Below are positions 9,921-14,693 of a stretch of 64,000 bases of DNA, in pieces. The first letter of the stretch is position 1; each line of letters opens with the position of its first letter. This DNA comes from Anaerolinea sp. (GTDB lineage Bacteria > Chloroflexota > Anaerolineae > Anaerolineales > Villigracilaceae). The position numbers and the translations under genes are program-made. The notes below the pieces were generated by a model. It made no database searches. It was given only the letters and a program-made list of their open reading frames with translations, and was not told the DNA's origin. Where the stretch lies: NCBI GenBank assembly GCA_020723805.1, contig DYID01000009.1, positions 1 to 64,000 on the forward strand. The letters are read 5' to 3'.

Positions 9921-9961
9921 GGGAATAGTGTAGAGGATAAGAAAAGGGTTGTCAAATGAAA

Positions 9962-9985
9962 ACAGTCCCCAAAAGCGGGGACTGT
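9962..9985 (-). terminator. Intrinsic terminator of the DEAD-box gene
   Basis: The nine-base perfect stem ACAGTCCCC / GGGGACTGT with a six-base loop lies five bases after the helicase stop codon. On the minus strand it is followed by TTTTCATTTG. Confidence 0.8.
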
Positions 9986-9989
9986 CATT

Positions 9990-11651
9990 TTACTTTGCCA
10001 TTGCCAGGCTGACTTTTTCTTTTCCAATGCGGTAATTGCCGTTCTGTTTCAACACCTGCTCGAGAAGGTTTTCGGGAACATCCACAAACGTGAACGTGTC
10101 CTCGATGCGGATTTTGCCGATGGTGTAGCCGGGGATGTTCGCATGGAAGGCGATTGTGCCGACGATGTCATTCGGGCGGATGCCGCTCGACCTGCCCTTG
10201 TTCAACTTCAAACGGACCATGCCCTCTTCATGAGACGCTTCGCCCTTAAGCCTCTGCCTGCTCCCGCGCCCAGACTCTTCGCGCCGCCCGAACCTTTCCC
10301 TCCTGCCACTTTCTACTTTCCACTTCTTTTCGTCTTTCACTTCTCCAATCTCCGCAATGGGACGCTGTTTTTCATCGACGCGGGCAATCTTGATGGCGGC
10401 GGCAGCGATGTCGAGCGGGTCATAGCCAGCCTCGATGAGTTCCTGCACCATTTCGAGTTCGCGTTTGTAGCGCCCGCGTCCAAGCCAGATTTTCAGGTTC
10501 TCCACCACCTTGCCCTCGCGGTGACGGTGAATCTCGGCGACGGTGGGCAGTTCCATTTTTGTCACGGTTTGTTTGGTGAGTGCTTCCACTTCGCGCAGGC
10601 GGCGTTTTTCTTTGGGTGAAAGCAATGTGATGGCAACGCCGGTCTTCCCGGCGCGCCCCGTCCGACCGATGCGGTGGACGTACACTTCGGCGTCGTCGGG
10701 CAGGTGATAGTTGAAGACGTGCGAGATGTCGTCAATGTCCAAGCCGCGGGCGGCGACATCGGTGGCGACCAGCACTTTCAACTGGTTGGCGCGGAAACGT
10801 CCCAGCACGCGTTCGCGGGCGTTCTGGTCGAGGTCGCCGTGAATGGCTTCGGCAGGGATGCCGCGCGTGACCAGTTCGTTGGCAAGCGATGCGGTCTCGG
10901 CGCGGGTGCGGGCGAAGATCAGCGCGCTCTTGATGGGTTCGATTTCGAAGAGACGCATCAGCGCATTGGTCTTGTCCGTTTCGTGGACGAGGTAGTAGCG
11001 TTGTTCGATGGCTAAGGCGTTGGCAGAGTCCCGTTTGATGGTGACCGATTGAGGGTCCCGCATGAAGCGGCTGGCGAGGGAGCGGATGCGCGGAGGCAGG
11101 GTGGCGCTGAAGAGCGCGGTCTGCCGTTCGGCGGGAGTCTCCGCGAGAATCTTTTCGATGTCTTCGATGAAGCCCATGTTGAGCATTTCATCGGCTTCGT
11201 CCAGCACGAGCGTGCGGATGTGCTTGATGTTGAGGGCGTTGCGTTCGATCAGGTCGAGCAGGCGACCTGGCGTGCCGACCACCACGTCCACGCCGCGGTT
11301 GAGGCGGCTGATTTGCGGTCCGTAGGGCTGACCGCCATAGACCGCCAGCACGCGCACGTTGAGATGTTTGCCGTACTCGGTCATTGAATCGGCGACCTGC
11401 AGGGCAAGTTCGCGCGTGGGTGCGAGGACGAGGCATTGCACATGCTTTTGCGGTTGAAAGTTGTGGAGAATGGGGAGGGCAAAGGCGGCGGTCTTGCCGG
11501 TGCCGGTCTGCGCCTGACCGATCACGTCTGCGCCGGTGAGCATGATGGGAATCAGCGCGGCTTGGATGGGCGTCGGCGTGGAATAGCCGAGTTCGGTGAT
11601 TGCCTGCATGAGTTCGTCACGCAGGCGGAGGGAGGTAAATTCGGTTGTCAT
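9990..11651 (-). CDS. DEAD-box ATP-dependent RNA helicase
   Basis: All helicase motifs are visible: AQTGTGKTA (Walker A), PTRELALQ, DEADEM (motif II), SATLPP (III), ARTRAET, ATDVAARGLDID and HRIGRTGRAGK (VI). The C-terminal part (about residues 470-553; RLKLNKGRSSGIRPNDIVG then IGKIRIEDTFTFVDVP) is the DbpA/CsdA-type RNA-binding domain. It unwinds structured RNA in ribosome assembly, decay or cold adaptation. Between core and RNA-binding domain lies a basic linker, KKWKVESGRRERFGRREES, coded by the GTGGAAAGT simple repeat that recurs between genes elsewhere here. The 553-residue length is normal for CsdA/DeaD relatives. A long leader with a terminator-like hairpin precedes it, suggesting regulated read-through. 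Confidence 0.93.
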   Translation of the reverse strand: MTTEFTSLRLRDELMQAITELGYSTPTPIQAALIPIMLTGADVIGQAQTGTGKTAAFALPILHNFQPQKHVQCLVLAPTRELALQVADSMTEYGKHLNVRVLAVYGGQPYGPQISRLNRGVDVVVGTPGRLLDLIERNALNIKHIRTLVLDEADEMLNMGFIEDIEKILAETPAERQTALFSATLPPRIRSLASRFMRDPQSVTIKRDSANALAIEQRYYLVHETDKTNALMRLFEIEPIKSALIFARTRAETASLANELVTRGIPAEAIHGDLDQNARERVLGRFRANQLKVLVATDVAARGLDIDDISHVFNYHLPDDAEVYVHRIGRTGRAGKTGVAITLLSPKEKRRLREVEALTKQTVTKMELPTVAEIHRHREGKVVENLKIWLGRGRYKRELEMVQELIEAGYDPLDIAAAAIKIARVDEKQRPIAEIGEVKDEKKWKVESGRRERFGRREESGRGSRQRLKGEASHEEGMVRLKLNKGRSSGIRPNDIVGTIAFHANIPGYTIGKIRIEDTFTFVDVPENLLEQVLKQNGNYRIGKEKVSLAMAK

Positions 11652-11866
11652 CGTTTTCCTTATGTTGCGGGCTGTTTCGATGACTCCGTTTCACTTCCTT
11701 CCTGCCAATCAGATTTGTCTTTGCAGACGCATCCGCCCAACAAAAAAGCCCGAGTTTACGTTCATCGGGCGTTCGTTCGAAGCGATCAAAACAATTCCCA
11801 GAGATTTGTGCTCTTCAACGAGAGCGAACGGAGTGTATCATAGATTTCAGAAAAAAGCGGAGGCAA
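11652..11866 (-). promoter_or_regulatory. Promoter and long leader of the DEAD-box gene
   Basis: On the minus strand, TTGCCT (11861-11866), an 18-base spacer and TATGAT (11837-11842) predict a transcript starting near 11830, which leaves a leader of about 180 bases. CGTTCG just after the predicted start could pair with CGAACG just ahead of the downstream terminator-like hairpin, offering an alternative fold. Long leaders are known for cold-responsive RNA helicase genes. Confidence 0.6.
11742..11770 (-). terminator. Attenuator-like terminator in the DEAD-box leader
   Basis: On the minus strand GCCCGA / TCGGGC forms a six-base G/C-rich stem with an 11-base loop, followed directly by six T residues. 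It lies inside the leader between promoter and start codon, and no other minus-strand gene ends upstream, so it is more likely an attenuator than a normal gene-end terminator. Confidence 0.6.
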
Positions 11867-11929
11867 TTTCATTGGGGGGCGGTTAAAAAGATAACCATTC
11901 ATCACCACGGAGATTGCAGCGTCCACTAG

Positions 11930-12056
11930 CCACGGATTGCACGAATTCACACGGATTGTCTAAAAAATTCGTGAAAATCCGTGTAATTCGTGGCATAGAA
12001 TCTTTCTCACGAGGCTTAATCCTGCCAGAAACGGGAAAGCCCATCCTCTTCATCCG
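11930..12056. repeat. Dispersed inverted repeat of the CCACGGATT-AATCCGTG type, copy 1
   Basis: CCACGGATTGCACGAATTC is answered by AATTCGTGAAAATCCGTG and ATTCGTGGC, giving a long imperfect hairpin. The segment goes on with GGCTTAATCCTGCCAGAAACG. It matches 21373-21490 closely. With the helicase leader it fills the 423-base gap between the helicase and mutS2, which has no gene. Confidence 0.75.
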
Positions 12057-12060
12057 TGGT

Positions 12061-12074
12061 TATAATTCCCTGCA
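12061..12074 (+). promoter_or_regulatory. -10 box directly before mutS2
   Basis: TATAAT at 12061-12066 is followed by eight bases and the mutS2 ATG. No Shine-Dalgarno sequence is present and the -35 region is not recognisable. A leaderless mRNA is predicted. Confidence 0.5.
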
Positions 12075-14585
12075 ATGGACGCAAAAAGCCTGCAAGTTCT
12101 GGAATACCCGAAAATCCGCGAGCGGCTGAAGTCATTCTGCGATTTTTCCGCTTCGATGGAGCTGGCGCTCGCCCTCGAGCCGACCGATTCCTATGACCTC
12201 GCCCTTGCCCGCCTCGCCGAAACAACCGAAGCGCGGCGTCTGCTTTCCGTGCAGGATGTGGGCATCGGCGGCGCGCACGACATCCGCCCGGCGGTGGATT
12301 TGGCGGCGCGCGGCGGCACGCTCGACCCGCAGCAACTGCTGGATATCAAGTCCACGCTCATTTCCTGCCGCGAGTTGAAGAAAACCTTCGAGCGCAAAGC
12401 GGACGAATACCCGCGTCTGGCGCAAATCGCGGCGGGGCTTCCCGAAACGCACGGCATCGTGGATGCCATCACGCGCGTCCTCTCCGACCGCGGCGAGGTG
12501 CTCGATTCCGCCTCTCCGAAACTTGCCACGCTGAGGCGCGAAATCAAAGTCGCGCATGACCGGCTGATGTCGCGTTTACAGCGTTATCTTACCGAAGCGG
12601 CTAACAAACTCCAGGAGCCCATCATCACCCAGCGCGACGGGCGTTACGTCATTCCCCTGCGGGCGGAGTTCAAAGGTCAAATCAAGGCGGTCATCCACGA
12701 CCAATCTTCCAGCGGCGCGACGCTGTTCGTGGAACCCCTGCCGGTGGTGGAGCTCAACAACGAACTGCGCGAACTCGAACTGAAGGCGCGCGAGGAAGAA
12801 CGCCGCATCCTGCACGAACTTTCCATGCAAATCGGCGAACATGCTGTCGAGTTCAAATACGGCGTCGAAAACCTTGCCATGCTCGACCTGATTTTTGCGA
12901 AGGCGAAGTATGCGGAGGAACTGCGAGCCAGCGAACCGATTCTGCACTCAATGAAAGAGGAAAGAGGAAAGAGGGTGGAGAGTGGAAAGAGGAAAAAGGA
13001 AGAGAGCAGTGATCAGTTATCAGTAAGCAGTGATCAGTTATCAGTGAGCAGTGATCAGTTATCAGTAAGCAGTGATCAGTTGTCAGTGAGCAGTGACCAA
13101 TCGTCAATCGTCAATCGCAAATCGCAAATCCGATTGATTCAGGCTCGCCATCCCCTTCTCGATCCGAAAACCGTCGTCCCCATTGACGTTGACCCGAAAC
13201 CCGGCACGCGCGCCATTGTCATTACGGGTCCGAACACGGGCGGCAAGACCGTCTCGCTGAAAACGGTCGGGCTGCTGGCGCTCATGGCACAAAGCGGACT
13301 GCATATCCCGGCGCAGAGCGGTTCGGAATTGCCGTTCTTCCACAACGTCTTTGCCGACATCGGCGACGAACAATCCATCGAGCAGTCGCTCAGCACGTTC
13401 AGCGGTCACATCACCAACATCATCCGCATCCTCAAACAGATTGACGAACGCTCCCTCGTCATCCTCGACGAACTGGGCGCCGGCACCGATCCGCAGGAGG
13501 GAGCGGCGCTGGCGCGCGCCATCCTCCAGCATCTGCTCGAGGTGGGATGCACCACACTCATCGCCACGCACTATCCTGAACTCAAGACGTTCGCGCATTC
13601 GACCGAGGGCGTGGTCAACGCTTCTTTGGAATTCGACATCAAGACTCTGCGCCCGACCTATCACCTCGAAATCGGACTGCCCGGCCGCTCGAACGCCCTG
13701 CTCATCGCCCAGCGCCTCGGTCTGCCTCAGCCGATCATTGATTCGGCAAAGGCAGAGATCCACCCCGACGATTTGCGCGCCGACAAACTGCTCGACGACA
13801 TCCGCAAGGAACGCAACCGCACCTCGCGCGAACGCGAGAAACTGGAAAAAGCCCGCGCCCGTCTCGAAGCGCAGACCGCTGAATTGCAAAAGCGGCTGGA
13901 GAAAATCGAAGACGAGCGCCGCGAAGTGCTGGCAAAGGCGCGCGCCGAGGGCGAATTGGAAGTTGCCATCCTGAAGAAGAACATCGAATCGCTGAAGTCG
14001 CAATTGAAGAAGGCACGGCAGCCGCTGGAGGCGTTGAGGGCAATCGAGGAGAAGGCGACAGCGATTGAAGAGAAGGTCGAAGCGCCGATTGTAAGGAAAA
14101 GTAATCAGTCATCAGTAAGCAGTGGGCAGGCGTTGAAGTTGGGGGAGCGGGTCGTTGTCGGCACGCTAAATGCCGAAGGTGTGGTGACAGCCTTGGGTGA
14201 GTCCGATGCGGAAGTCCAGATTGGGAGTCTGCGCGTGCGGGCGAGGCTGAGTGATTTGGCGAGGAAGTCCGGCGAGTCGAAAGTCGAAAGTCAAAAGTCG
14301 GTTGACGTTCGACCTGCGACCTTTGACACGACGAAGTCGCCGGGGTTGGAATTGAATTTGCGCGGCAAACTGGTGGATGAAGGGTTGGAGGAGTTGGAGC
14401 GGTATCTGGAGAAAGCCTATGCGGCGGGGCTGTTGTTCGTGCGGATTGTGCATGGGAAGGGGACCGGCAAGATGCGCGAGGCAGTGCGCAATGCACTGAA
14501 GGAAAGTCCGTATGTGGTCTCGTTCGAGGAGCCAAAGGATAGCGAAGGCGGCGCGGGCGTGACGGTGGCAAAATTGGCGAGGTAG
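12075..14585 (+). CDS. mutS2: MutS2 ATPase/endonuclease with Smr domain
   Basis: The ATPase has Walker A GPNTGGKTVSLKT and Walker B VILDELGAGTDPQEG, followed by THYPELK. A coiled-coil clamp rich in Lys/Glu/Arg comes next, then a C-terminal Smr domain with LNLRGKLVDEGLEEL and VHGKGTGKMREAV, the nuclease-type signature. MutS2 acts on branched DNA and on stalled or collided ribosomes. The 836-residue length is somewhat above the usual 780-790. The excess lies in linkers made of short repeats: four copies of the heptapeptide SSDQLSV (21 bases each) at about residues 311-338, just before the ATPase domain, and two further repeat-derived stretches around residues 676-685 and 735-755. All keep the frame. 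No mutL or mutS is in the window. Confidence 0.95.
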   Translation: MDAKSLQVLEYPKIRERLKSFCDFSASMELALALEPTDSYDLALARLAETTEARRLLSVQDVGIGGAHDIRPAVDLAARGGTLDPQQLLDIKSTLISCRELKKTFERKADEYPRLAQIAAGLPETHGIVDAITRVLSDRGEVLDSASPKLATLRREIKVAHDRLMSRLQRYLTEAANKLQEPIITQRDGRYVIPLRAEFKGQIKAVIHDQSSSGATLFVEPLPVVELNNELRELELKAREEERRILHELSMQIGEHAVEFKYGVENLAMLDLIFAKAKYAEELRASEPILHSMKEERGKRVESGKRKKEESSDQLSVSSDQLSVSSDQLSVSSDQLSVSSDQSSIVNRKSQIRLIQARHPLLDPKTVVPIDVDPKPGTRAIVITGPNTGGKTVSLKTVGLLALMAQSGLHIPAQSGSELPFFHNVFADIGDEQSIEQSLSTFSGHITNIIRILKQIDERSLVILDELGAGTDPQEGAALARAILQHLLEVGCTTLIATHYPELKTFAHSTEGVVNASLEFDIKTLRPTYHLEIGLPGRSNALLIAQRLGLPQPIIDSAKAEIHPDDLRADKLLDDIRKERNRTSREREKLEKARARLEAQTAELQKRLEKIEDERREVLAKARAEGELEVAILKKNIESLKSQLKKARQPLEALRAIEEKATAIEEKVEAPIVRKSNQSSVSSGQALKLGERVVVGTLNAEGVVTALGESDAEVQIGSLRVRARLSDLARKSGESKVESQKSVDVRPATFDTTKSPGLELNLRGKLVDEGLEELERYLEKAYAAGLLFVRIVHGKGTGKMREAVRNALKESPYVVSFEEPKDSEGGAGVTVAKLAR
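12956..13133. repeat. In-frame short tandem repeat arrays inside mutS2
   Basis: A GAGGAAAGAGG/GTGGAAAGAGG stretch leads into four to five copies of a 21-base unit (AGCAGTGATCAGTTATCAGT plus A or G; first copy 13005-13025). This is followed by TCGTCAATCGTCAATCGCAA-type heptamers up to 13133. The 21-base unit is three 7-base units, so copy-number changes keep the reading frame. Confidence 0.85.
14276..14335. repeat. TCGAAAG/TCAAAAG heptamer repeat inside mutS2
   Basis: Units of the type TCGAAAG and TCAAAAG, then an inverted relative (GACCTGCGACCTTTGACAC), form an in-frame linker between the clamp and the Smr domain of MutS2. The same family appears in cydDC (34015-34045) and in the GMC oxidoreductase gene (56098-56157). 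Confidence 0.75.
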
Positions 14586-14639: not shown

Positions 14640-14693
14640 GAGAGAGTGGAAAGTGGAAAGTGGAAAGTGGAAAGTGGAAAGTGGAAAGTAGAG
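14640..14693. repeat. GTGGAAA heptamer array between mutS2 and a small gene
   Basis: AGTGGAAAGTGGAAAGTGGA continues for about seven units of seven bases. Related arrays are at 52244-52302 and 54691-54757, and in coding sequence at 12975-13000 and, inverted, at 10296-10330. Confidence 0.85.

Follow-up and report, generated by a model that had tools for sequence, protein, structure and literature searches.

A conserved three-way-junction RNA with a terminator-like hairpin in the leader of a DbpA-type DEAD-box helicase gene of Anaerolineales

The DNA analysed here, referred to as the window, comprises 64,000 nucleotides of contig DYID01000009.1 (positions 1 to 64,000, forward strand; assembly GCA_020723805.1) from Anaerolinea sp., a member of the Villigracilaceae in the order Anaerolineales. 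A gene for a DEAD-box RNA helicase is encoded on the minus strand and is preceded by a leader with promoter-like and terminator-like sequences, as follows (window positions throughout):

11866-11837, minus strand: TTGCCT-18-TATGAT, the promoter of the preliminary description, overlapping the -10 element of the next line
11840-11832, minus strand: extended -10 element TGA-TACACT, conserved pattern TGn-TAnRMT, with a predicted transcription start near 11825
11770-11748, minus strand: predicted terminator hairpin P2, GCCCGA / UCGGGC, 11-nt loop, -8.7 kcal/mol
11747-11742, minus strand: U-tract of six U, read directly from the sequence
9990-11651, minus strand: DEAD-box RNA helicase open reading frame, 553 amino acids, ATG at 11651
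9961-9986, minus strand: strong terminator-like hairpin 3′ of the helicase gene, -17.8 kcal/mol, used as a yardstick for P2

The helicase contains DEAD, Helicase_C and DeaD_dimer domains and a C-terminal DbpA RNA-binding domain, and a search of its own 3.69-Mb genome found this gene as the single DbpA-domain match. Its best named relative, from an Anaerolineae MAG, shares 45% identity, closer records possibly having been left out. On the N-terminal side of the DbpA domain the reading frame contains a low-complexity KKWKVESGRRERFGRREESGRG stretch (window ~10335-10260, minus strand), the DNA of which resembles GAAAGTGG-type repeats close to the neighbouring ORF; an in-frame repeat insertion is a possible origin.

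A G/C-rich stem followed by six T residues had been described in this leader, and both are present as described, with arms GCCCGA at 11770-11765 and TCGGGC at 11753-11748, about 90 nt upstream of the helicase ATG. Window statistics alone give nothing above chance. A scan found 7 terminator-like sites where 6.1 are expected, and P2 is absent from that list, presumably because its loop (11 nt) is longer than 8 nt; single-sequence folding is likewise unremarkable (z -1.40 for 11831-11640 and z -0.54 for 11831-11738). It is conservation that raises the leader hairpin above chance: among homologous leaders (128 fetched elements, 126 distinct after removal of 2 duplicate sequences), 123 of 126 contain a strict terminator, defined as a stem of at least 5 bp with at least 4 G-C pairs and at least 5 T in 8 nt, compared with 45 of 2520 dinucleotide shuffles. 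A chance hairpin without function would agree with the unremarkable single-sequence statistics, and it is contradicted by every comparative result, including the covariation presented below, so that we give this explanation next to no weight; judged from sequence comparison, the conserved leader is very probably a real control element.

The same comparison bears on the promoter. TTGCCT-18-TATGAT, which had been put forward as a clear promoter for the helicase gene, does exist, but its register is probably wrong: conservation across copies favours TACACT, and a relaxed form of the extended -10 pattern lies 5′ of the element in 124 of the 126 distinct copies. The true -10 is thus probably TGA-TACACT, a few bases downstream of TATGAT. 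By eye, TGA-TACACT has no good -35 at 17 nt in the window, where a promoter scan found 2 promoter-like sites against 1.5 expected.

The hairpin and T-run are one part of a larger conserved RNA that the preliminary description had overlooked. RNAalifold applied to 16 leaders from the genus returned a three-way junction, P1-P2-P3, the parts of which are given below for the window; A3 denotes an alignment of 98 distinct rows fitted to the covariance model, and R1 and R2 denote covariance models, R2 being the second, built from 100 copies.

11805-11670, minus strand: structured leader element, three-way junction, whole match to R1 and R2
11792-11785 and 11783-11779, minus strand: 5′ strand of P1, GUUUUGAU and GCUUC, from covariation
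11687-11683 and 11681-11674, minus strand: 3′ strand of P1, GGAGU and AUCGAAAC, from covariation
11747-11740 with 11705-11698, minus strand: U-tract helix of P3, UUUUUUGU paired with GCAGGAAG, from RNAalifold and A3
11735-11710, minus strand: inner hairpin of P3 with the GNRA loop GCAA at 11724-11721, strong covariation

The window element scores 144.8 bits with R1 (E 8.9e-36) and 131.8 bits with R2, and is the single copy in its own genome at E<=1 (R1). Within the genus, P1 pairs GUUUUGAU..ACUC(C/U) with GGAGU..AUCRAAAC as a long-range helix around the whole element, while P3 pairs the U-tract with GCARGAAG, stacked beneath a covarying hairpin with a GNRA loop. Long identical runs flank the terminator on both sides in the 16 genus leaders, and the P2 loop and the second hairpin are variable. 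A GNRA-capped stem is found in 115 of the 126 copies. Four loci (L161, L166, L167 and L179) have an extra G/C hairpin between the 5′ strand of P1 and P2.

A3 has 96.3% of its cells paired, and double changes occur in 19 of its 36 pairs. Since A3 leans towards the model to which it was fitted, the test was repeated on A4, for which MAFFT aligned 47 diverged copies, all from the family of the window, without regard to structure (an identity-like score ratio below 0.86 and an element length of at least 110 nt selected 85 of 126 copies, of which 47 were aligned; the 21 most diverged family copies and 17 copies from other families are outside A4). RNAalifold recovered P1, P2 and the P3 hairpin from A4, with 96.5% of cells paired compared to 36-53% for slid controls, compensatory double changes in 16 of 28 pairs, and none of 500 shuffles reaching the observed value on any measure. 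P1, counted as helix 1, has 98.5% of cells paired and double changes in 5 of 14 pairs. The U-tract helix of P3 is absent from the RNAalifold fold of A4, and several A4 rows have its 3′ strand misaligned, which makes it the least certain of the helices. Many of the changes convert U-A to U-G and would be A-C mismatches in the other strand, indicating that the structure belongs to the helicase-sense RNA. Furthermore, the 3′ strand of P1 sits 3′ of the terminator, so P1 is possible in read-through RNA only; selection on P1, which joins both sides of the terminator, means that the read-through RNA functions as a structure in its own right.

We then consider what the U-tract and P2 say about termination. 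A run of at least five T in the 8-nt tail occurs in 110 of the 124 copies with a detected P2, and the run is shorter in the other 14. P2 has a free energy of -8.7 kcal/mol in the window, compared with a median of -12.0 kcal/mol over the 124 copies, and is weak next to the -17.8 kcal/mol hairpin after the gene, which suggests partial termination. The U-tract is kept as U even though its partner is G in most copies (A3 columns 112 and 115), where C would pair equally, a hint that something besides pairing requires U there. However, U is likewise preferred over C in the 5′ strand of P1 (GUUUUGA in A3), and the preference in the U-tract is therefore no proof of termination. A post-transcriptional element, in which the junction would set mRNA stability or processing as a target of an RNase or the degradosome (compare rne leaders) and the terminator likeness of P2 would be secondary, accounts well for the fact that P1 and P3 require full-length RNA and covary, and for U-tracts that are broken in some copies; in the available passages of PMC10989929, a U-rich stretch in the leader of Synechocystis rne serves as a site for RNase E. 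It accounts poorly for a G/C stem and T-run that 123 of 126 copies have kept, where shuffling yields 45 in 2520, and for a U-tract that remains U opposite G, and we regard it as unlikely, while ranking it above the other alternatives to attenuation discussed here.

Elements of this type are confined in our searches to part of the order. The helicase is present in all 18 genus genomes, the window's own included. R1 matched 108 of 152 family genomes, in 16 of 26 genera. In a sample of 400 genomes of the order R2 matched 106, of which 19 belong to three other families (f9, f13 and f14); in a sample of 400 from the phylum it matched 21, every one a member of the window's family. No R2 match was found in 80 loci round helicase relatives, nearly all of them from other phyla and one an Anaerolineae record; a few of these loci have little upstream sequence. 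Searches over more than 40 genomes used stricter filters that lose weak matches, and these limits of distribution are thus lower bounds.

A DEAD-box/DbpA-type helicase gene lies directly downstream on the same strand in 127 of the 128 fetched loci: 108 of 109 in the family, where the exception (L193) has 28 nt before the contig end, and 19 of 19 in other families. A single family genome (G029) has two copies (L129 and L200), each before its own helicase gene and the second much diverged; these are either paralogues or the result of assembly contamination (6%). This linkage, together with covarying P1 pairs that join both sides of the terminator, makes it hard to see the promoter, ~84 nt and terminator, which do follow one another in that order, as a free-standing small RNA gene from which the helicase would be reached by read-through or expressed from another promoter. 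We consider such a gene very improbable.

Among 29 chosen genomes without a model match (19 of the 44 such genomes in the family, 7 from the order and 3 from the class), 21 lack the helicase at E<=1e-120 and 8, all in the family, have it. Read by eye, the leaders of these eight have diverged but keep the order of parts: a -10 of TATACT, then a short 5′ hairpin, GUUUUG, a G/C hairpin followed by a T-run of 4-6, and a GNRA-capped hairpin, with a UCAARAC- or UCGAAAC-like strand in 7 of 8 (L248 being the exception). Two of the eight score at E<0.05 with R2 at full sensitivity, and the shared order of parts accordingly comes from reading and not from a score. In two genomes of the genus, G003 and G015, no element was found upstream of the helicase gene when the contigs were searched with R1; the former (L017) has, by eye, the sequence of another gene there, and the latter (L018) an unrelated sequence.

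The spacing between element and gene speaks to translational control, by a hidden ribosome-binding site or by a leader peptide driving attenuation. The start codon lies 10-34 nt past the element in 13 of the 19 loci of families f13, f14 and f9, as hiding of a ribosome-binding site would have it. Over all copies, though, the element-to-ATG distance has a median of 96 nt and a maximum of 181 nt (n=125, one of 126 dropped; the minimum of -26 is a misplaced match, L244), and unrelated repeats occupy the spacer in genus relatives; variable distance and spacer repeats argue against direct hiding of a ribosome-binding site. The repeats are of at least two unrelated types between element and start codon in L003-L016, namely GTCATTGCGAGG..CGCAATGAC palindromes and GACTATC-type repeats, with almost none at that place in the window. 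As for a leader peptide, no conserved uORF was found in the copies: CCxGATG occurs in 49 of 126, with ORF lengths from 2 to at least 50 codons. Translational control of either kind is, in our estimation, improbable.

At gathering cut-offs, Rfam 15 gave no family match in the window, nor did any family match the element in 20 relatives, and the element is a structured RNA class new to Rfam 15. Seven sub-threshold Rfam matches in 11600-12100, five of them microRNA-like on a palindrome at ~11921-12002 and two on the plus strand, were far below the cut-offs and were rejected. The one match obtained from these relatives is a c-di-GMP-I-GGC riboswitch aptamer (L146:389-473, minus strand), which lies on the opposite strand, ~130 nt upstream of the helicase leader.

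An alternative fold of the leader between CGTTCG (11830-11825) and CGAACG (11779-11774) had been suggested, along with a simple feedback or cold-response switch by a helicase that would melt its own leader. The pair proved to be private to the window genome (1 of 126 copies), and the fold is rejected: the sister leader L109 has CGTGCG at this place, and the CGTTCG copy falls at or before the predicted start site near 11825. In 7 of 126 copies, six nucleotides of the 5′ region are perfectly complementary to part of the sequence preceding P2, with no conserved site. In the computed nascent RNA, the 5′ strand of P2 is bound to upstream sequence at a median probability of 0.67 before P2 is complete, and in the 40 copies listed the upstream partner contains the conserved UGGG. 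This pairing is short, its A3 columns pair in 61-99% of copies, and several distant copies lack it; in one of the 40 listed copies (L141) the upstream pairing beats P2, which is left with a probability of 0.02. We thus found no strong conserved antiterminator able to form before P2, the UGGG pairing being the only candidate. The best conserved competitor of P2 involves a further segment:

11742-11736, minus strand: UGUUGGG, spanning the end of the U-tract and the bases beyond it, with the final UGGG unpaired in the consensus

Here CCCGAUG of P2 (11769-11763) pairs with UGUUGGG over 7 bp, with a mean of 94% of cells paired in A3; this helix reaches beyond the U-tract and would act in read-through RNA only.

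Nor does temperature alter the computed fold. When the RNA is folded at equilibrium up to the end of the U-tract, P2 has a median probability of 0.997 at 37 °C and 0.999 at 10 °C (n=122, 4 of 126 elements dropped), from which termination is the computed default and temperature by itself is no switch; equilibrium folding at 37 and 10 °C found no temperature-dependent fold change, and the suggested cold switch, as far as it would work through base-pairing alone, finds no support. A protein could still bring the cold in. A cold-shock protein or other RNA chaperone might bind the U-rich UUGUUUUGAU and UUUUUUGUU, open P2 and allow read-through in the cold, and the U-rich strands (A3 columns 13-18 and 59-66) are among the best conserved positions of the element (97-100%); in the available passages of PMC5472812, cold induction of Caulobacter cspA arises from transcription attenuation at optimal temperature. 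Set against a chaperone as the input are the missing computed effect of temperature on P2 and the fetched loci, in which helicase genes are the only genes linked to the element. A chaperone therefore seems to us a doubtful candidate, if a better one than a small RNA gene or translational control.

Building on the computed conservation of the architecture, its covariation, the retained terminator and the gene linkage, we favour, with a probability of roughly two in three, a leader RNA that acts in cis and serves the helicase gene alone, working by transcription attenuation. RNA polymerase would start near 11825 and make P2 and the U-tract, and part of the polymerases would by default stop near 11742 and release an RNA of ~84 nt. 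Those that read through would go on to make the 3′ strands of P1 and P3, upon which the RNA would close to a compact three-way junction with the U-tract re-paired, and the helicase mRNA would be completed. Because a helicase gene comes next wherever a fetched locus extends far enough downstream, the helicase itself is the likeliest input, and the attenuator is probably autogenous, gene linkage being the one basis for this step. We infer, then, that P2 terminates, that read-through is regulated and that the regulator is the helicase or its DbpA domain; as to direction, more helicase would presumably lead to more termination.

DbpA-type domains target 23S rRNA, and mimicry of the rRNA target is frequent in autogenous leaders, though no requirement. 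Local alignment of the element with the 23S rRNA of its own genome gave no sign of such mimicry in sequence, with a score of 21 against a shuffle mean of 22.1 (148 of 200 shuffles scored as high).

A more specific version of autogenous attenuation would make the leader a sensor of helicase activity, the decision at the terminator reading the free RNA-unwinding capacity of the cell. A misfold of the nascent RNA, for example of UGGG with the CCC of P2, would let polymerase through and would be favoured by slow RNA refolding, as in the cold; plentiful active helicase would resolve the misfold, P2 would form and transcription would stop. The GNRA-capped three-way junction of the read-through RNA might then be a recognition site for the helicase or a second checkpoint. 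We offer this version tentatively and hold it to be far less probable than attenuation as such.

Autogenous leaders of RNA-binding proteins are familiar from ribosomal protein genes, such as the Bacillus subtilis rplJL and L20 leaders, of which rplJL works by transcription attenuation. The leader described here resembles these in being a structured leader that would control the gene of an RNA-binding protein, and differs in that the target is a helicase gene, that no rRNA mimicry is apparent by sequence and that the regulator is proposed from gene linkage. In being a covarying leader RNA tied to one gene, it also resembles Rfam cis-regulatory families and DIMPL-type orphan motifs, and unlike the former it has no match in Rfam 15 at gathering cut-offs.

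Closer in terms of the gene are two helicases for which self-control, proposed here, has evidence in the available passages: Synechocystis crhR, via transcript and protein stability (PMC3485376), and Caulobacter rhlE, with 5′ UTR-dependent expression and a 186-nt leader (PMC5472812). The passages available from these papers describe no conserved terminator-bearing RNA fold for either gene, and the available text of PMC3485376 contains no word starting with "terminat" or "utr". Closer in terms of the proposed mechanism are Synechocystis rne, with ~96% premature termination in the leader calculated under mock conditions (available passages of PMC10989929), and Caulobacter cspA: in these genes, which serve RNA metabolism or cold adaptation, polymerases end transcription within the leader, as they are predicted to do here. 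These are other genes with other sequences, and we claim no homology. The RNA described here does not appear in the available passages on the crhR, rhlE, rne and cspA leaders.

A word search of structured-RNA discovery papers, covering the available main text of papers open without subscription, likewise found no DEAD-box leader motif. In the parts available, PMC2864571 names Chloroflexi-1 and pan as motifs of Chloroflexi, without any helicase, PMC11109978 mentions helicases once and in general terms, and PMC6429828 yielded no DEAD-box leader motif by word search; PMC5874925 deals with feedback on RNase J in Helicobacter and not with autoregulation of a helicase. The nearest known motif in these sources is the Bacillales uORF motif that precedes hflX, which that paper calls an RNA helicase (PMC8632094, available part); it concerns another gene in another lineage. 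How bacteria adjust their supply of general RNA helicases is little understood; according to the available text of PMC3485376, the pathways are not well characterized. The present element offers an RNA of ~135 nt, for which a covariance model exists and 126 distinct natural copies are known, as a means of testing feedback by the helicase, the response to cold, and attenuation. Should the helicase act on its leader, the element would moreover be a natural and genetically simple reporter of RNA-unwinding capacity.

An imperfect palindrome, CACGAATTACACGGATT..AATCCGTGTGAATTCGTG, lies at window ~11921-12002, between a divergent ORF and the helicase promoter, and is possibly a dispersed repeat. Tandem repeats of heptanucleotides follow: CAGTGAT, with 12.9 copies, at window 13004-13096, and GAAAGAG and AGTGGAA, at 12953-13006 and 14645-14689. 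The CAGTGAT repeat is in frame within ORF 12075-14585, putatively MutS2-like from its sequence, and it encodes a repeated SDQLSVS stretch.
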